Below, piece after piece: positions 5,556-14,595 of a DNA stretch of 20,700 bases. A program made the position numbers and the translations under genes. The notes beneath the pieces were generated by a model. The model did not search any database. It was not told the DNA's origin and was given only the letters and a program-made list of their open reading frames with translations. Position 1 is the first letter of the stretch. The number at the start of each line of letters is the position of its first letter. Origin of the DNA: a virus; the IMG/VR virus record IMGVR_UViG_3300021180_000055, positions 1 through 20,700 of that record. The stretch is one strand, 5' to 3'.

Positions 5556-6575
5556 TTAGAACGGCGCCCCTCCCGTGATCCCGGTTATCTGCATCCCGGT
5601 CGATGGCTTAGAGCAGACCAAATTGAGCGCAGTAATCGAAAGACCCACGCTCGCGATCTGTCCTTGCGGGATGGTGGAGTACCAGCCGGTCCACGCAAAA
5701 TTTGCATCTTCATGCACCACTAGTGTGATGTATTTTGAGTTGAAGCCGTAGGCGGTTCCTTGGGGGCAGTTGAGGTCGAAGAATATTGGAGTATCCCCCA
5801 ACAGAAGCCCGCGAAAACCAGAATTAACAGGATCATCCTTACCCCAGCGGGAAGAAGGATCATTGTTGTAGCGCTCCACCGCCATGAAGTCGGTGAGGAG
5901 GGTCGTCCAATCCTCGACCGAACAGACCATGAAATCCAACGCTTCGCCGCCTGAGTTTTTAACCGCGGCGAGCATGTTGGGGATGAACGCGGCGCGGGTC
6001 AGGATGTCGCCAGCGCCTGCGACGACGAGCCCCTGCCAATCCGGGTAGGTCGCCCGACTGAGGCCGCCATAGGTGGGCGCGGTGGTGGCGTTGCCGTAGG
6101 CGTCCTGTAGACTGAACATCTGCAAGACGTTGACGCCGATCGGCGGGCCGAACAGCGCGGTTGTGAGCGCCTGCAATGACGAATTTTTCAGATCGTTGAG
6201 CTTGAGCATGAGGCGCGAGGCGACGGCGATCGCGTCCTGCGTCACGAGCTGTTCGAGGCCAAGCGAGCTGACCGGCGTGGCCAGCGCGCACATGTTAAAT
6301 TCCGCATTGACGGTCGCGGCCACGTCCTGCGGCAGATTGAACTGCCCGGCTGGCCCGATCCAGCTCGATTGGACGTATTGCCCGGTCTGCACCGGCTGGG
6401 TGTACGGCGAGACGCCGCCGCTGGCCCGGATGGCGTTACGAAGGAGGAGGGCGAGGAGCGGATTTTGTTTGTATATTAAGATCACGACCATCTGCGCAAA
6501 GACGCGGCGGACGGTCGCTTGCAGTTCCAATCCGATTGGACCGGATGGAATAATACCCGCGCCAAGCAGGGGCAT
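5556..6575 (-). CDS. major capsid (coat) protein
   Basis: A 339-residue protein starts at ATG 6575 after GGGAG. The order portal, scaffold, coat and its length fit an HK97-fold coat. The N-terminal region (RRVFAQMVVILIYKQNPLL, helical) is followed by a segment with TQPVQTGQYVQSSWIG. A long helix with dense small residues lies near the middle (EQLVTQDAIAVASRLMLKLN). LDFMVCSVEDWTTLLTDF and YNNDPSSRWG are followed by a GDTPIFFD strand and ITLVVHEDANFAWTGW, the usual late strands of viral coats. No protease gene lies nearby, which fits a P22-like head built on a scaffold rather than by cleavage. The exact coat family cannot be set by eye. Confidence 0.7.
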   Translation of the reverse strand: MPLLGAGIIPSGPIGLELQATVRRVFAQMVVILIYKQNPLLALLLRNAIRASGGVSPYTQPVQTGQYVQSSWIGPAGQFNLPQDVAATVNAEFNMCALATPVSSLGLEQLVTQDAIAVASRLMLKLNDLKNSSLQALTTALFGPPIGVNVLQMFSLQDAYGNATTAPTYGGLSRATYPDWQGLVVAGAGDILTRAAFIPNMLAAVKNSGGEALDFMVCSVEDWTTLLTDFMAVERYNNDPSSRWGKDDPVNSGFRGLLLGDTPIFFDLNCPQGTAYGFNSKYITLVVHEDANFAWTGWYSTIPQGQIASVGLSITALNLVCSKPSTGMQITGITGGAPF

Positions 6576-6578
6576 GGT

Positions 6579-7118
6579 TCATCTCCCTCGGGCGCGCTCC
6601 TCGTCACGGTGGATTGCGCCTAGGATTTCTTTGCGTCCCCACGCTTCCGGGTCTTTAGCGATTTCAGCGAACTCCGGGGCCTTTTCATGATGCCAAAACT
6701 GGCTGTCATGGGTCGGAGCTGACATCTGCGGGTTCTTGCTCGCCCTGTATTCGGCCTCCACTTCGTGATCGGCGACGGCTTTTTCGTGCATCCACTTTTC
6801 GAGGTCTTTCATCCCCTCGTCGGTGAAACCGTATTGTTTCTGGACCCGCGCGCGGCTGGCGTTCCACGCCTCGCGATCGGCGCGGGCCGCCGCCTCGGCC
6901 GCCTCGCGCTGTTTCTTCTCGTCCTCGGCGCTGAACCGTTGCTCGACCTTCTGCTCCAGATCGAAGTCGGGGATGGCGAGGTTCGGGTACTTGCGCTTGA
7001 TGAGGCGCTTCGCCTCTTTGTTCAACTGCGGATCGTTATAAATGCTCTCGACGAAATCCGCCGTCATGCGCTTGTCTTGCAGGTATTTATATTCCTCGTC
7101 CGAGATGGTGCGCGGCAT
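6579..7118 (-). CDS. capsid scaffolding protein
   Basis: A 179-residue, highly charged, almost wholly helical protein. It starts MPRTISDEEYKYLQDKRM, has a long coiled-coil-like core (AEDEKKQREAAEAAARADRE) and a basic end (HRDEERARGR). That profile and a place directly before the coat gene fit a scaffold, which guides procapsid assembly and is then lost. The basic tail could contact the coat, as in P22 gp8; that is inference. The stop lies three bases before the coat ATG. An exact TGTCA-N11-TGACA dyad lies inside the gene at 6704-6724. Confidence 0.65.
   Translation of the reverse strand: MPRTISDEEYKYLQDKRMTADFVESIYNDPQLNKEAKRLIKRKYPNLAIPDFDLEQKVEQRFSAEDEKKQREAAEAAARADREAWNASRARVQKQYGFTDEGMKDLEKWMHEKAVADHEVEAEYRASKNPQMSAPTHDSQFWHHEKAPEFAEIAKDPEAWGRKEILGAIHRDEERARGR
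6704..6724. promoter_or_regulatory. intragenic copy of the TGTCA-N11-TGACA dyad
   Basis: Both halves match exactly, with the same 11-base gap as the intergenic copies. It lies within the scaffold gene, about 130 bases before the coat ATG on the minus strand. The spacer is GC-rich and has no -10-like sequence. It may be chance or a secondary binding site. Confidence 0.3.
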
Positions 7119-7121
7119 GGT

Positions 7122-7307
7122 CTAGCTCTTGTTGTCCTTGCCAACGACGGAAGGCTGCAACGGGACGCCGCCTTCGGGCTTAGGCACGACCTTGGGGATC
7201 GCGCCCCACTCGCTGACTTCCGATTGGGTGTCGACTTGGAGGATCGTCCTCGGCGGCGTCTCCGGGGGCGACGTGATCGGCGGGTCGTATGACCTGTTCT
7301 GTGCCAT
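7122..7307 (-). CDS. small Pro-rich protein, 61 aa, before the scaffold
   Basis: The ATG at 7307 lies after GGAGG-AAAAC, so it is preferred over an in-frame TTG at 7319. The product starts MAQNRSYDPPITSPPETPPR and is hydrophilic and disordered-looking throughout, ending VVGKDNKS. Its stop is three bases before the scaffold ATG. It is the first gene after the dyad at 7333-7353 and so may open a scaffold-coat transcription unit. No family is recognised. Confidence 0.55.
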   Translation of the reverse strand: MAQNRSYDPPITSPPETPPRTILQVDTQSEVSEWGAIPKVVPKPEGGVPLQPSVVGKDNKS

Positions 7308-7332
7308 GTTTTCCTCCAAGTCTAGGTTAGAC

Positions 7333-7353
7333 TGTCAACCCATATGGATTACA
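7333..7353 (-). promoter_or_regulatory. operator-like dyad and possible promoter before the scaffold-coat genes
   Basis: On the minus strand the site reads TGTAA-N11-TGACA, one mismatch from the common dyad, with TATGGG in the spacer where other copies have TATGGT. The -35 match is poor. It is followed by the palindrome GTCTA-ACC-TAGAC (7320-7332), then GGAGG and the 61-aa gene. That order (dyad, hairpin, ribosome site, gene) matches the early units. It overlaps the stop codon of the PEP-CTERM-like gene. Confidence 0.45.
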
Positions 7354-7912
7354 CTAGCAATTCGCGCGGCTTGCGCCGGGTCATCGTCCCCCAGATGAAG
7401 CCGACGCCGATGACGAGCATGGCCCACGTCGACAACTCGGGCGTCGCGACGGCGGTCACAGTGCCGTCGACCGCGAGATGGATCGGCGACGAGCCGCTGA
7501 CGCCCGACACTTCGGCGAAATAGGCGCCAGCGTTGAGGATGTCGGGGACGACGGTCGCTTCCTGTCCGCCGACGACGTTGTTGATCGGCGAACTCTCAAT
7601 CAACGCGCCTGCCGGAATGAACAGCGGACCCGGCCCGGTCGAGGTCTGCGTACTGAGGGAGAGGACGCCGCCGACGATGCCGAGATTGCCAATGCCGCTG
7701 TCGGATAAACTGAGGGTGACGGTTTCCCGCGTCGGCAGGGTGAACTCGAAAAATTCGTTGAAACCGATGCTGGAGCCCGGCGTGTCATTCGCTGGAAGCG
7801 CAAGGCTTTCGTTGAAAACGCTGCCGACGTTCTCGACACTGACTTGAATTGCCGCTGCGCTGGGCGCGGCGGTCGCCGCCAAAATGGCGGCAGTCAAAAG
7901 CAATCTGTTCAT
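7349..7912 (-). CDS. secreted PEP-CTERM-like protein
   Basis: A 187-residue protein starts at ATG 7912, chosen because a Sec signal peptide begins there (MNRLLLTAAILAATAAPSAA). The mature part is Ser/Gly/Val-rich and beta-like (FNEFFEFTLPTRETVTLSLS, AGAYFAEVSGVSGSSPIHLA). It ends with TPELSTWAMLVIGVGFIWG followed by TMTRRKPRE. This is a sorting tail of PEP-CTERM type: a P-E-x-S-TWAM motif, a membrane helix, then a basic cluster. The exact motif is PEL rather than PEP. In bacteria with exosortase, such proteins are cut and anchored in or released from the envelope. A phage gene of this kind between virion genes suggests a host-surface or biofilm effect, or cargo taken from the host. Confidence 0.65.
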   Translation of the reverse strand: MNRLLLTAAILAATAAPSAAAIQVSVENVGSVFNESLALPANDTPGSSIGFNEFFEFTLPTRETVTLSLSDSGIGNLGIVGGVLSLSTQTSTGPGPLFIPAGALIESSPINNVVGGQEATVVPDILNAGAYFAEVSGVSGSSPIHLAVDGTVTAVATPELSTWAMLVIGVGFIWGTMTRRKPRELLV

Positions 7913-7959: not shown

Positions 7960-8454
7960 TCAACTCCCCGGTAGGGGTGTGGATGGCATCGGAGCGCCGC
8001 CTTGGCCGCCGCCCGGCTGGCCTTGTCCGCCCGATCCCATGATTTTTTGCAGCAGCGCGTTCTGGATCGTGCGTTTGAGCTGGTCGCCGATCATCGTCTT
8101 CTGGATACCGACGGCCGGTCCCATGCCGCCCGCGCCGCCGAGATGGCGCGAGAGCTGGCTGATGGTGCGGAACACGTCGGAGTGGAGCTTGCTTCCCGGC
8201 TGCAATCCAAGCCCCGCCTGCTTCAAGGTTTGGATGGCTTGGATGATGAGGTTCATGCTGTCGGCTTGGTTGCCGGGTCCGGGCGCCGAGACTTGCGCGC
8301 CCATTTTCGAGCGGGCGAAGGCGGCGAGGTCGCCGCCCTGCATGGGCGCAGTGTCGCCCGGCGGCTGACCGCCAGTGGGAGGACCGGGAGGAGCGCCACC
8401 GGGCGGGGGCTGGTCTTGCCCCATCTCGGGATCGTCATCCGTTACGTCGGCCAA
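7960..8454 (-). CDS. Gly/Pro-rich protein downstream of the portal
   Basis: A 164-residue protein. The start is a TTG at 8454, seven bases after GGGGAG; no in-frame ATG fits. The ends are low-complexity (PPPGGAPPGPPTGGQPPG near the start, GGQGQPGGGQGGAP near the end). The core (about residues 63-130) is helical: MNLIIQAIQTLKQAGLGLQP, then VFRTISQLSRHLGGAGGM. Position after the portal suggests a head or assembly protein, but no family is recognised. Confidence 0.55.
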   Translation of the reverse strand: MADVTDDDPEMGQDQPPPGGAPPGPPTGGQPPGDTAPMQGGDLAAFARSKMGAQVSAPGPGNQADSMNLIIQAIQTLKQAGLGLQPGSKLHSDVFRTISQLSRHLGGAGGMGPAVGIQKTMIGDQLKRTIQNALLQKIMGSGGQGQPGGGQGGAPMPSTPLPGS

Positions 8455-8582: not shown

Positions 8583-10322
8583 TCACTGCAAAGTCGGCTT
8601 TCCCCCGCCTGCTTTCTTGCGCGAGCCGCCGCCGCCCGGTTTGATGCCCAAAATCTGCATCATCAAGCCTTCCTGCTTGTCCTCCTTCGCCTGCGCGGCT
8701 TGGGCTTTCTGCCGCTGCTTCAAGCGCGACAGAAGTAGCTCTGCGCCCGGCGGATGGAGCATGTGGATCAAATCCTCGGCGTCGATCGCACCCGCGCGAG
8801 CGAGCGCAATAGCGACCTGACGATTGTCCTCCGCGAAGGCGGGTGAGGCCGAGTGGCTGTCGACTTGGACTTGGAAATTGCCCGGAAGCTGGGAGAGGAG
8901 AAATTCAATTTGGCTGTCGGCTGTGGTGTAGATGAGGGCGTCCATGGCTTGCATGATGCGGAGCGCCAGCCACCCACAATCGGCGAGCTGCCGTTCGAGC
9001 GTCGCGGCTTGTTTGATGAGGTGGGGGGACGAAGTTCTAACCAAGGTTTGAGCATGGACGCCAGCTCGGACACCCGGCTCTCCCGATCCAGACATGATAG
9101 GCGAGAACCCAGATGCTTCATCAAACAATTTGAAAATAAATTCGAGTTCTTCCAAGTAGTTTTCCGGCGGCGGGTCCAGTAGTTTTGTCGCTTTTGCGTT
9201 AGGGTTTGGATCGTTAATGAAGCCTCCCTCGTTGACAATCTTAAAGTATTGTTCCTCGGTGACGGAGGAGAAGCCTGAGAAGACTTGAGGGGCGTTGACA
9301 TTGCGATCCCACATGACTTTGATGTCGCGCATTCGCTTGTTCAGCATGTCCTGCAACATCTGAACGTCGGCGATCATCGAGCGGCCCCAGAAATAGCCGG
9401 GGGTCGGCTGCGGCTGCACCTTGACGAAGCTCGATTTGCCGGGGACGCGCGACAGGTTCCGGCGCGTGTCGTCGCCTTCGATGATGATCGGCTCGGCCCC
9501 GTAAATGACTTGGATCGTCGTCCAATCCTCGTCCCGGTCGCGGTCCTTGATCCACACTTCGCAGTGCTTGACGGTCGGGGCGAACGAGCGCTGCGGGCGC
9601 CACGGCGTGGGAACGGGAAAGACGTTGACGATACCCGCAGCGCTACTGGGGGCGTCGCCAACGTCGCCCAACGGTTGCAGCCCGCCCACAACCATTTGGT
9701 GAAAGTAGGTGGGCTCCTCCTCCTCGCGCATCGGCCCCGGCTGGCTGTCCAGCTTGGCCATGATTTCCTCGTAGCGCGGATGTTCGAGCAGCATCGTGCG
9801 CAGCCGCGACTTGGTCGGATAGCTGACGTGGCAGAACGCCTCTTGCTCGTCGAGGTTGAGGGTCGTCTCGGAAAGCACGCCGAAATTCTGCGGGTGCACG
9901 GGCGCGGTCTTGAAGGTGCCGCTGTCGCCGTCGGGCAGGACTTTGAGGATTTGACAGCCGTTCACGAGGCTCCAAACGACCGCCTCGGCGAAGGTGATAT
10001 CCGCGTCAGTCTGCCGGAAATCCATCGACAGTTTTTCGGCCACGAGCTGCGAGCGTTCGAGGATGCTCTCGTCCTCGCCGCTGTCGTAAATGAGCTGGAA
10101 GCGGACGTCGGTCGGCTGCATGAGGAAACCGGCGAGCTTGTCGATGAAGGGCTTGGTTTTGTTGTAAAGCGCAGCCCTATTGTCCGTCGACCCCATGTAG
10201 TAATATTGAGCGGCGCGGGAATAAATCATCCCCCGCTCCTCGGACGACGCCATGCACTGGTCGATCATCTCTCGTATCCAGAGCTTGAGGTCGTCGGATT
10301 TCGACGGGATTTTGAGCGCCAT
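8583..10322 (-). CDS. portal protein
   Basis: A 579-residue protein of the usual size for podovirus portals, twelve copies of which form the DNA entry ring. Seen features are a helical N-terminus with YSRAAQYYYMGSTDNRAALY and KTKPFIDKLAGFLMQPTDVR. A wing/stem region follows with GYFWGRSMIADVQMLQDMLN and KRMRDIKVMWDRNVNAPQVF. A late stretch reads FDEASGFSPIMSGSGEPGVR, then AGVHAQTLVRTSSP. The Gln/Lys-rich C-terminal coil ends in a Gly/Lys tail. The GEPGVRAG-type motif after a helical stem is common in portals. The gene sits between the secreted glycosidase-like gene and the Gly/Pro-rich gene. Start ATG 10322 has a weak ribosome site. Confidence 0.8.
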   Translation of the reverse strand: MALKIPSKSDDLKLWIREMIDQCMASSEERGMIYSRAAQYYYMGSTDNRAALYNKTKPFIDKLAGFLMQPTDVRFQLIYDSGEDESILERSQLVAEKLSMDFRQTDADITFAEAVVWSLVNGCQILKVLPDGDSGTFKTAPVHPQNFGVLSETTLNLDEQEAFCHVSYPTKSRLRTMLLEHPRYEEIMAKLDSQPGPMREEEEPTYFHQMVVGGLQPLGDVGDAPSSAAGIVNVFPVPTPWRPQRSFAPTVKHCEVWIKDRDRDEDWTTIQVIYGAEPIIIEGDDTRRNLSRVPGKSSFVKVQPQPTPGYFWGRSMIADVQMLQDMLNKRMRDIKVMWDRNVNAPQVFSGFSSVTEEQYFKIVNEGGFINDPNPNAKATKLLDPPPENYLEELEFIFKLFDEASGFSPIMSGSGEPGVRAGVHAQTLVRTSSPHLIKQAATLERQLADCGWLALRIMQAMDALIYTTADSQIEFLLSQLPGNFQVQVDSHSASPAFAEDNRQVAIALARAGAIDAEDLIHMLHPPGAELLLSRLKQRQKAQAAQAKEDKQEGLMMQILGIKPGGGGSRKKAGGGKPTLQ

Positions 10323-10331
10323 GGGCCGCGA

Positions 10332-11252
10332 TCACTTGCAGCAAGGGACGCAATCGCCCGGCTTTTCCGGCCCCTCCGGATAGGGCGGCTCGGGCTCGGG
10401 CTCGGGCGTGATGTTCCGATTGGCGAACCAATCCCGATAAACCTGCTGCATCGCCGTGTCGCGCGACAGGCAGTCAGTCGACTGCTCCTGACAGCTCCAA
10501 GCGTAGGCGTATTCCATCATCGGGTTAGGCAGACGCTTGTGCCAAGTGTCGAGGATTTTCTGCGTCTGCGCCACGGTCGGCATTAGGAACACGCCGCCGG
10601 TCGCCTCGGTGCGCCAGCCAGCGAACGCCTGATAGGTGGGAGCTAAATTGGCGGTCGGGATGTGCTTCTCGGCGGCGTCGACATAGCGGTCGACCATCGT
10701 CCAATCGCACCCGTCTTCCATGCCGGGATGCCCGACGAAATCAGACCGGCACATGTACGAGCCGACGCCGAAGACGTCGATCCCGGTATTGCCCGGATAA
10801 TAATCGTCGTAATTCGGAGCTTTCTGCCCGTCGCTGTTGCCCATCTTGATATAGGTTTTGGCGGTCGGGATGATCGATTTGATGTAGCGCGTCTCGGCCA
10901 GCAAATTGCCCGGCGGACAGGGCGGCTTGCCGCCGTAGCCCTTCACATAAGGCTCGTCGATCAGGTAAAATCCCCAGAGCTTTTCGTTGCCCCGGAAGGG
11001 GTCGACGAAGGCGCGGAAGGCTGACGTGTCGCCGCCGCAGCCGATCGAGCTGGACACGTACACCAGCCCCAGCACTTTCTCGGGCAAGCGGTTGAGGTTG
11101 CTGACGCTGTTCACGTCGGCGAGGTTGAAACCAACCGGCCCCGGCATGTACTCGCCGTTCACCAGATTGCCGCCGGACGTGAAGTGCATGGTTGGAGTTT
11201 GCGCGGCGGCTGGCGTTGCCAGCAGAGCCAGCGCGAGAAGCCAGCGTTTCAA
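10332..11252 (-). CDS. secreted glycosidase-like TIM-barrel protein
   Basis: A 306-residue protein starts at TTG 11252, five bases after a perfect AGGAGG. The TTG also begins a clear Sec signal peptide (MKRWLLALALLATPAAAQ). The mature part has TIM-barrel glycoside-hydrolase texture. GFYLIDEPYVKGYGGKPPCP places an acidic D-E pair at a strand end. LLAETRYIKSIIPTAKTYIK, GNTGIDVFGVGSYMCRSDFV and NLAPTYQAFAGWRTEATGG follow the strand-helix rhythm. Several Cys residues may pair after export. It ends in a Pro/Glu linker and a Cys-rich tip (PGDCVPCCK). I infer a wall- or polysaccharide-active or sugar-binding secreted protein; catalysis is not shown. Its ribosome site overlaps the stop of the zinc-ribbon gene. 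Confidence 0.55.
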   Translation of the reverse strand: MKRWLLALALLATPAAAQTPTMHFTSGGNLVNGEYMPGPVGFNLADVNSVSNLNRLPEKVLGLVYVSSSIGCGGDTSAFRAFVDPFRGNEKLWGFYLIDEPYVKGYGGKPPCPPGNLLAETRYIKSIIPTAKTYIKMGNSDGQKAPNYDDYYPGNTGIDVFGVGSYMCRSDFVGHPGMEDGCDWTMVDRYVDAAEKHIPTANLAPTYQAFAGWRTEATGGVFLMPTVAQTQKILDTWHKRLPNPMMEYAYAWSCQEQSTDCLSRDTAMQQVYRDWFANRNITPEPEPEPPYPEGPEKPGDCVPCCK

Positions 11253-12355: not shown

Positions 12356-12585
12356 TATGTCCTCCAAGTCGCTGCTTTCACGCTCCACATCTGCGCCGTC
12401 TGCGCCTCGGTGATCGCCACCGAGTACATGCGTTTGACTTCGGGATCGGTCGCCGCACTGCGCAATTCGTTGCAAGCGTCGATGAACTCGGCTGCGCGCT
12501 GTTTCAACTCGGCCACGGCGTTGTCGCCGCTCGGATTGAAGGTCAGCCCGACGGCGCGCTCGCCAAACGACTGTTCCTTGTCCAT
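12355..12585 (-). CDS. Acb2/Tad1-like putative anti-CBASS or anti-Thoeris sponge
   Basis: A 76-residue helical protein starts at ATG 12585, seven bases after AGGAGG, its start overlapping the terminase stop by one base (TGATG). It reads MDKEQSFGERAVGLTFNPSG, then a helix (VAELKQRAAEFIDACNELR), then VAITEAQTAQMWSVKAATWR. The FGE-AVGLTFNPSGD opening and TEAQTAQMW-VKA-TW close recall, to my memory, phage proteins annotated with the Acb2/Tad1 helical-hairpin domain. Acb2 and Tad1 bind the cyclic nucleotides made by CBASS and Thoeris defence and stop the signal. The family call is by pattern only and the ligand is unknown. Its place right behind the terminase would give late expression, which is odd for a counter-defence gene. 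Confidence 0.6.
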   Translation of the reverse strand: MDKEQSFGERAVGLTFNPSGDNAVAELKQRAAEFIDACNELRSAATDPEVKRMYSVAITEAQTAQMWSVKAATWRT

Positions 12586-14387
12586 CAGAAAACCTCCTTG
12601 CGCCGCCCCGCGTTCTGATTGATCCGGCGGATGTGTTCCGAGAACGCGAAGGATAGCACCGTCCCGGCATTTTGCGGAGGCGGATCGCCCTTCACGCTGT
12701 CCCACGTCAGTTTGCGGGCGATCAGTCCCGGCCGACGCCACTCAATCCACGTGTGATGCGCCAAGGTGACGGCGCTGACAAGATCGTCGTTCTCTCCGGT
12801 GTCAGGCCCGGCCCCTAACCAGCCGTCATCTTCGACGATCGCCTGCAACTGCTTGACGAGCCGGATCGACCGCAGCTCGATCTGGCGCAGCATCAGGCTG
12901 TCGCGGAGCGCCGAATAGATCGCCTGCTTGTTGTCCTGATTGGTTTTCCAGTTGATGACGTTGCCAGCCCCGCCCAGCGTGTCGGCGCGCTTGTAGAGAA
13001 ACCAACGGACGGCTCCAACCATGTTGAGAATGCTGTCGCTGCCTTGCTCGGCTTGGATGATGCCGCGCTGCGCGAGCTGGCGGAGGTTGCGCACTTCGGG
13101 GATGACGGCGGCCCCGACGCCTGAGACTTCGACGTTCGCCAGATGGTCGCGGTATGCGCCGCACAGGTGGCAAAGCACCCATGCGAACTGATAGGTCAGA
13201 GGCTTGTTCGATTGGAACTCGGCGACTTGAACCAATCTGTCGGCGTAGCAGCGCAGGACTTGCAGCGAGTGGTCGTTAGCGTCCCCCCCGCCGCCCCCCG
13301 ACGGATCGCCGCCGATGACGTACACGCCCGCCGGTTCCGGCGGCTCCCACACCCTTAGCTGCACTTCGTCTTTGTTCGTCGTCTGCACGATCGACGAGCC
13401 AAGAAAGGCGTCCTCGAAGTTGTACTTGTAGCCCTGGTACGGCGGTCCCTCCGCTAGGCTCTCCGCCAGTTCGAGCGTTCGTGCTGCTGGGAAGAAAGAC
13501 GAGCCCGAAGCGATGAAGCATTCCCGCTCGTTCCACGGATAGTGACGGAGCATATATTCCTCCGCCCGGAACTCCGCCTCGCGTCGCCACCACGCCACTT
13601 GCTCCGGTTTGACGATGATGTTGTAGCGCGCTCGCACGTCGCGCGCTCTGATTAACTCCTCGTCGTCCAGCCTGCCGTCCCAATAAACTTTGTAGTCGGG
13701 ATCGGACTTGTCAATCGAGTAGGTTGGATTGGCCCAGAAGCCGACGAAAATGAACCGCATGTGGCGGTCGCTCTTGGCTTGCTGGCAATGGTTGTAAAAC
13801 CAATTGAAGCCGTTTGCGATGCTCTCCCAAATGTAGAGCCGGTGCGGGTTGACGCGCGCCAACGAGGCTTTCAAGCTCTCGACGCCCGCTAGCGACTTCC
13901 ATTGGCCGCACTCGGTCATGTGGCACATGTTGAGGGCGCGCGAGGCGCCAAGGTCCGGGTTCGAGGCCGCCGCCATCAAGTCGATCACGCTGCGGTTGGC
14001 GAACGCCATGCCGTTGCGGTTGTTCTGGATCAGGCGGTGTTCGGAGCTGCGCCACTCGGGCGGCAAAGTCTCGAGGAGCGCGGCGAAGATGCGCCGCAAC
14101 CGCTCAAGGTTGTCAGTGCGGTCGGCGATGATCGCGCCTTGGACGCCGGGATTGGCGAGCGCCCAGAACAATTCGATCACGCTGCAAACGGTCGTGATCG
14201 CGACTTGGCGGCATTTCAAGACGACGAACTCGTGGACGCCCTCGTTGAGCCCCTTGGCGACGGCGTCAATCACCAGCCGTTGCGACAGCCACGGCTCAAC
14301 GTGGGTCCGCCCTTCCTCCTTGGTGTCGATTTCGACGGCGTTGAGGAGGTCGTAGATGCCGGTTCGGATGCTTGGCTTAGTGGCCAT
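12585..14387 (-). CDS. terminase large subunit
   Basis: A 600-residue motor protein that packages DNA into the head and cuts it. Start ATG 14387 overlaps the end of the 72-aa gene by 11 bases. The N-terminal ATPase has a deviant Walker A, LKCRQVAITT (residues 57-66, Lys58, Gln61, Thr65), a variant common in phage terminases. The Walker B-like site is LNMCHMTECGQW (about 152-163, Glu159). The nuclease has VYVIGGDPSGGGGGDANDH (Asp361), NVEVSGVG (Glu420) and GENDDLVSAV (Asp534/Asp535), the three acidic clusters of the RNase H-like domain. The length is normal to long. An upstream in-frame extension to 14432 lacks a ribosome site and is not used. Confidence 0.9.
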   Translation of the reverse strand: MATKPSIRTGIYDLLNAVEIDTKEEGRTHVEPWLSQRLVIDAVAKGLNEGVHEFVVLKCRQVAITTVCSVIELFWALANPGVQGAIIADRTDNLERLRRIFAALLETLPPEWRSSEHRLIQNNRNGMAFANRSVIDLMAAASNPDLGASRALNMCHMTECGQWKSLAGVESLKASLARVNPHRLYIWESIANGFNWFYNHCQQAKSDRHMRFIFVGFWANPTYSIDKSDPDYKVYWDGRLDDEELIRARDVRARYNIIVKPEQVAWWRREAEFRAEEYMLRHYPWNERECFIASGSSFFPAARTLELAESLAEGPPYQGYKYNFEDAFLGSSIVQTTNKDEVQLRVWEPPEPAGVYVIGGDPSGGGGGDANDHSLQVLRCYADRLVQVAEFQSNKPLTYQFAWVLCHLCGAYRDHLANVEVSGVGAAVIPEVRNLRQLAQRGIIQAEQGSDSILNMVGAVRWFLYKRADTLGGAGNVINWKTNQDNKQAIYSALRDSLMLRQIELRSIRLVKQLQAIVEDDGWLGAGPDTGENDDLVSAVTLAHHTWIEWRRPGLIARKLTWDSVKGDPPPQNAGTVLSFAFSEHIRRINQNAGRRKEVF

Positions 14388-14595
14388 GCAGTCCGGGCTC
14401 GTCGGTCGCCATCGGCTGCGGCTCGCTGTCATAAATCATGTCGAATGACAATTCCATGATTTGCAGCCAGCGCTTGCGATCGTCCTTCGAGAAGTAGTCG
14501 CCGGGCGGGGGCAAATGCTCAAGCAAGGCGTTTATGATCGGGTCCAGCTCCATCCCGTTGTCGTGGTTGTCAGGCTCGATTTTTGTTTTCGGCAT
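14377..14595 (-). CDS. small acidic protein before terminase, possible small subunit
   Basis: A 72-residue protein begins MPKTKIEPDNHDNGMELDPI. ATG 14595 lies a few bases after GAGAGG. A helical middle (INALLEHLPPPGDYFSKDDR, then KRWLQIMELSFDMIYD) is followed by an acidic end. It overlaps the large terminase gene by 11 bases, suggesting coupled translation. Many phages place the small terminase subunit here, but this protein is short and has no visible helix-turn-helix, so that role is only possible. Confidence 0.55.
   Translation of the reverse strand: MPKTKIEPDNHDNGMELDPIINALLEHLPPPGDYFSKDDRKRWLQIMELSFDMIYDSEPQPMATDEPGLHGH

Follow-up and report, generated by a model that had tools for sequence, protein, structure and literature searches.

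We found that a gene for a PEP-CTERM-like secreted protein, situated among the head genes of a soil phage, is one member of a mobile, modular family that occurs in many unrelated, uncultured phages from soil. The stretch analysed, called the window here, is a 20.7-kb IMG/VR virus record, a metagenomic contig fragment, in which the original prediction had singled out one odd gene; its widening into a family strengthens the core idea. We favour, with some reservation, the explanation that these are mobile phage accessory (moron-like) genes whose products are exported by Sec and passed to the host exosortase, which would place them at the cell surface or within exopolysaccharide, with a probable effect on adsorption, superinfection or aggregation.

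Results

Profile searches recognised several phage genes in the window, including a tail-fibre-like gene and, on the minus strand, those for the terminase large subunit (12585–14432; phrog_2, E=3.6e-17), the portal protein (8583–10322; a weak SU10 portal match and 31% identity to the annotated portal of MW202753) and the major head protein (5556–6575; phrog_9953, E=2e-24). The predicted ORF at 7349–7912 proved to be real; it runs on the minus strand from an ATG at 7912 to a stop at 7349, encodes 187 amino acids and is co-directional with the head genes, with gaps of 47 bp upstream and 29 bp downstream. It had been placed between portal and scaffold genes. Its position inside the head cluster stands, but its direct neighbours are a 164-aa ORF (7960–8454, minus strand), the conserved upstream border in the slot survey and DNA comparison described below, and a 65-aa ORF on its downstream side (7122–7319, minus strand; ORF list and DNA comparison). 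The word scaffold is a guess from position, as no profile gives a name to the scaffold-like ORF (6579–7118, minus strand) that served as the downstream border in the survey.

The N-terminus of the 187-aa protein, MNRLLLTAAILAATAAPSAAA, resembles a signal peptide (residues 1 to about 22; 7847–7912, minus strand), with a basic start, a hydrophobic core peaking in hydropathy at residue 4 and an A-x-A-like site; it is conserved in 25 homologous proteins and kept across ectodomain types. The C-terminus, ATPELSTWAMLVIGVGFIWGTMTRRKPRELLV (ending also written TPELSTWAMLVIGVGFIWGTMTRRKPRELLV), has the tail architecture of P-E-x-x-T-W, then a helix, then RRK. This putative PEP-CTERM tail (7349–7447, minus strand), delimited by profiles, AlphaFold, hhalign and hydropathy, comprises PELSTW at residues 158–163 and a membrane helix predicted by AlphaFold at about 160–178, followed by RRKPR; all type A proteins (see below) have 3–5 basic residues past the helix. 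The most hydrophobic 15-mers begin at residues 160 and 4, and the top hydropathy windows are confined to the two ends; the interior maximum is 1.45 at residue 73, where the model has no long helix. Hydropathy and AlphaFold thus indicate that nothing between the signal peptide and the tail spans the membrane.

The NCBIfam model NF038126 (FxDxF PEP-CTERM) matched the protein over its full length (E=6.2e-8; residues 5–181 to model positions 2–165 of 165), spanning signal peptide, ectodomain and tail, at 33 bits against a cut-off of 50. NF035944 (PEPxxWA-CTERM) gave E=1.1e-3 and 18.8 bits against a cut-off of 35; PF07589 did not match, and nothing in Pfam or PHROGs was significant. The window protein therefore lies below every curated PEP-CTERM cut-off, and it has PEL where the canonical motif is PEP. 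Among type A proteins the motif reads PEP in 26, PEA in 5, PEL in 4, PEI in 2 and PET in 2, while P-E-x-x-T-W is invariant; indeed, P158, E159, T162, W163 and M165 are invariant in an alignment of 36 type A homologues, the majority of which were gathered or recovered with ectodomain patterns independent of the tail. PF07589 scored above its cut-off in 12 of 23 phage records with homologues and in 0 of 14 control genomes. On these matches the family qualifies as PEP-CTERM, and the window copy is a diverged, sub-threshold relative. A search with PEP-CTERM models, proposed as a check at the outset, thus returned matches, below cut-off for the window protein and above it for homologues; together with the co-direction with head genes, these support the claim of a phage-borne PEP-CTERM-like secreted protein in the head cluster. 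A chance motif was ruled out by the NF038126 and NF035944 matches, the invariant residues in 36 homologues and dN/dS.

Most proteobacterial PEP-CTERM genes have a sigma-54-type upstream element, which is not a strict requirement. Searching upstream for such an element, we obtained best-site scores no higher than in shuffles, with no enrichment; were the gene transcribed along with those of the phage, no such element would be expected.

Between the two ends lies the ectodomain (residues 23–155; 7448–7846, minus strand), which is the portion swapped among relatives. An AlphaFold model built from 36 homologues predicts a beta-sandwich between two end helices, with a mean pLDDT of 65 and most of residues 51–140 at 74–84. 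The best PDB resemblances were weak (beta-sandwiches of the p24 GOLD domain, CBM35 and CBM6; TM about 0.3–0.4 by query length), and no PDB match reached E<=1e-3; there was also a weak likeness to domains of phage tail proteins. A carbohydrate-binding role is allowed by the predicted fold but not supported by it. The type B model (pLDDT 58) was too poor for a fold search.

The proteins found in this position have three ectodomain types: A (that of the window), B (EVFDNGSLIDN) and C (ITETDFTANA). P-E-x-x-T-W is kept in all 25 aligned slot and homologous proteins of the three types, and the FxDxF PEP-CTERM model matched 25 of 25 (best 8e-14), PEPxxWA-CTERM 21 of 25 and PF07589 21 of 25. In hhalign comparison of A with C only the C-terminal 39 columns align, so the tail behaves as a module; A and B can be aligned over their whole length, though the match is convincing only at each terminus. 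Phages that are near-identical to the window but have a type B gene share with it 86–92% DNA identity in the portal gene, 92–94% in the 164-aa gene and 85–100% in the intergenic stretches flanking the gene on both sides. Within the gene, identity is 73–76% in the signal peptide and 71–83% in the tail, as against 48–50% in the ectodomain. This pattern is one of cassette replacement, the ectodomain being exchanged while the export and sorting tag stays constant. The families are also under purifying selection, with dN/dS of 0.1–0.45 in the closest within-family pairs (medians 0.39 for A, 0.15 for B and 0.36 for C). We also observed a large family of PEP-CTERM-tailed ORFs in viral contigs, type D (LQLSISSGGSTFTC; pattern loci L111–L227), which hhalign links to type B.

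To follow the gene among relatives of the window, 80 viral loci were fetched with the portal, and the slot, defined as the interval between the portal and the scaffold-like ORF, was counted where both of its borders were present. It held a PEP-CTERM gene in 10 of 10 loci at portal identity of at least 90% (including one, L016, whose protein extends past the tail), 15 of 18 at 80–90%, 2 of 3 at 75–80% and 1 of 36 below 75%. The gene is thus accessory to a single subclade and has been acquired or lost whole. Two loci with no PEP-CTERM gene (L038 and L047) have HNH-endonuclease-like ORFs in the same interval. In L016 (11432–12148, plus strand) the tail continues for tens of residues beyond the RR cluster, possibly through a frameshifted or extended end. 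Directly upstream of the window's portal gene lies another gene (10332–11252, minus strand), which encodes a second secreted protein of 306 aa with the signal peptide MKRWLLALALLATPAAAQ and a glycosidase-like GFYLIDEP stretch, for which we found no significant match in Pfam, PHROG or PDB. Its relatives were confined to L011 (49%) and to a set of five viral contigs (L269–L273; 83–85%), so it is likewise taken to be a sporadic insert.

A place for the protein in the virion, as a decoration or adhesin produced alongside the head proteins, would suit a gene between portal and head protein genes and the weak likeness of its beta-sandwich to phage tail protein domains. We regard this as very improbable, since the signal peptide and the membrane helix at the C-terminus would export the protein from the cytoplasm, where capsids are assembled, since the gene is absent from relatives of about 70% identity with the same head genes, and since other phages carry it among replication genes or on the strand opposite the portal.

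Scanning by ectodomain, with the alignment of type A as query, yielded 52 type A loci on 51 viral contigs, at 56–80% identity; one contig, IMGVR_UViG_3300021475_000019, has two type A PEP-CTERM genes (L241 and L251). By gene sharing, 43 type A loci fell into five backbone groups, the carriers including the window's own group, primase-module phages, integrase-bearing phages and phages with a phrog_1216 portal. The last also have a different terminase, and their PEP-CTERM gene is on the strand opposite the portal; among other carriers the gene adjoins portal or replication genes. Of 30 carrier records, 17 had a phrog_2 terminase and 12 a phrog_1 integrase, and no integrase was detected in four records of the window's lineage (G000, G001, G005 and G007). 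Type A is thus carried by five or more unrelated phage backbones, some of which have integrases while others lack them. A wider search with a PEPSTWAM DNA pattern matched at least 120 stretches, and the PEP-CTERM-like ORFs among the matches listed fell by ectodomain into about 48 groups; some of the single-member groups are spurious ORFs or may be genes of the host.

That the gene is a passenger from a bacterium, or an assembly chimera, functionless in the phage, might be suspected from the bacterial character of the protein type and from the window being a metagenomic contig fragment. This seems to us the least credible of the explanations: the same slot is filled in independently assembled contigs from many samples, the gene is under purifying selection, and it recurs in unrelated phages. 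The first and last of these observations rule out a chimera or passenger.

The same distribution bears on a role in lysis, for example as a protein resembling a unimolecular spanin, whose beta-rich ectodomain and C-terminal membrane helix would disrupt the envelope. Export, the C-terminal helix, the beta-rich ectodomain and the head-cluster position would all fit. Unimolecular spanins have an N-terminal lipoprotein signal, yet a lipobox pattern was present in only 1 of 95 proteins of four families; the gene lies among head genes, or elsewhere beside portal or replication genes, and not in a recognised lysis cassette, and the window protein matches no PHROG lysis family. In PHROGs the PEP-CTERM proteins had no match, except that a single type D protein showed weak similarity to a holin (E=0.08). 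We consider a lytic function very unlikely.

Searches for exosortase (PF09721, TIGR02602) in sets of 20 and 22 phage records found none; if sorting takes place, the enzyme must come from the host. Among cultured phages, a search of 50,697 phage records gave no match for types A, B, D or the bare tail, PADLOC gave no match, and PLSDB plasmids had none to the window's type A protein. GTDB genome contigs yielded no type A relative and no portal relative, each scan using only two short peptide patterns, which makes absence weak evidence; the portal scan found no prophage relative from which to read the host. For type B and D proteins, most matches were to PEPxxWA proteins of sphingomonad-like character and lay chiefly in the tail, and these nearest cellular relatives of the tail hint at alphaproteobacterial hosts, although they do not prove them.

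The lack of a phage exosortase would also suit a periplasmic protein that is anchored in the membrane and serves superinfection exclusion or guards the envelope; its tail would be a stop-transfer anchor, and no exosortase would take part. Signal peptide, C-terminal helix and basic end make up a complete type I membrane topology, and the window motif is PEL rather than PEP. A bare anchor, however, needs no P-E-x-x-T-W, which is nonetheless invariant in 36 type A homologues and in 25 of 25 proteins of three types, and models derived from exosortase substrates do pick out the tail. We judge a simple anchor unlikely, while taking it seriously.

Discussion

The original interpretation was partly supported: the PEP-CTERM-like protein in the head cluster stands, and PEP-CTERM models do match it. 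A bolder reading, which we consider somewhat less likely than not, is that uncultured soil phages of many lineages share a mobile pool of exosortase substrates, with a constant signal peptide and PEP-CTERM tag and freely exchanged ectodomains, and that by means of this pool the phages commandeer the host exosortase and so give infected cells or lysogens a new surface. According to the published model, a PEP-CTERM protein crosses the inner membrane by means of its signal peptide and is kept in place there by its tail, and its PEP site is what EpsH/exosortase recognises (PMC1569441). By analogy, the phage protein would be translated together with head genes, exported by Sec and retained in the inner membrane by its tail; host exosortase would then recognise PE..TW, remove the tail and deliver the ectodomain to exopolysaccharide or the outside of the cell. 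Once there, this exchangeable beta-sandwich would alter what the infected cell presents, or the lysogen in the case of integrase-bearing carriers. The effect, the least certain step, would most likely be superinfection exclusion, with receptors or exopolysaccharide masked from rival phages, or else changed aggregation. Swapped ectodomains in a fixed slot are what a trait diversified by exchange among competitors should show, which makes exclusion or the masking of receptors our first guess and aggregation our second.

Aggregation could also be the main purpose, with the protein acting as a matrix protein that brings progeny to new hosts rather than excluding rivals. Cellular PEP-CTERM proteins and exosortases are required for flocs and biofilm (PMC9850573, PMC12188702), and the weak resemblance to carbohydrate-binding-type beta-sandwiches is in keeping with such a role; carriers without a detected integrase, however, look virulent and would have little time to build a matrix. 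We hold this purpose to be rather doubtful.

Until now PEP-CTERM sorting has been known solely from cells, where it serves proteins of the surface and of exopolysaccharide. Were phages to supply substrates, it would become a battleground between phages, and if our explanation is true, it offers a handle on the role of the orphan, homology-poor ectodomains of PEP-CTERM proteins. Such phages would then be predicted to infect only exosortase-positive hosts, which would narrow the possible hosts for a large number of uncultured soil phages, and their genes would form a virus-encoded, variable surface system not reported before. We found no report of a phage PEP-CTERM protein in the literature covered, which leaves out most subscription journals. 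A bacterial sorting system seems to be exploited by phages, a viral use that we did not find reported before.

The closest known family is that of NF038126, which the window protein resembles over signal peptide, ectodomain and tail, and from which it differs in its score (33 bits against the cut-off of 50), in PEL for PEP and in being phage-encoded. The likeness to NF035944, PF07589 and TIGR02595 lies in P-E-x-x-T-W-A-M followed by a helix and a basic cluster, and relatives pass the PF07589 cut-off. Whereas cellular genomes usually carry many PEP-CTERM substrates plus EpsH (PMC1569441), the phages have one or few copies and no exosortase. The phage genes for superinfection exclusion or lysogenic conversion that alter the host envelope (reviewed in PMC11436027) are likewise accessory, sporadic and envelope-acting; we found no reported example among them with an exosortase tag, whereas here ectodomains are swapped behind a constant one. 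The new part is the phage-borne, modular and mobile character of the PEP-CTERM family.
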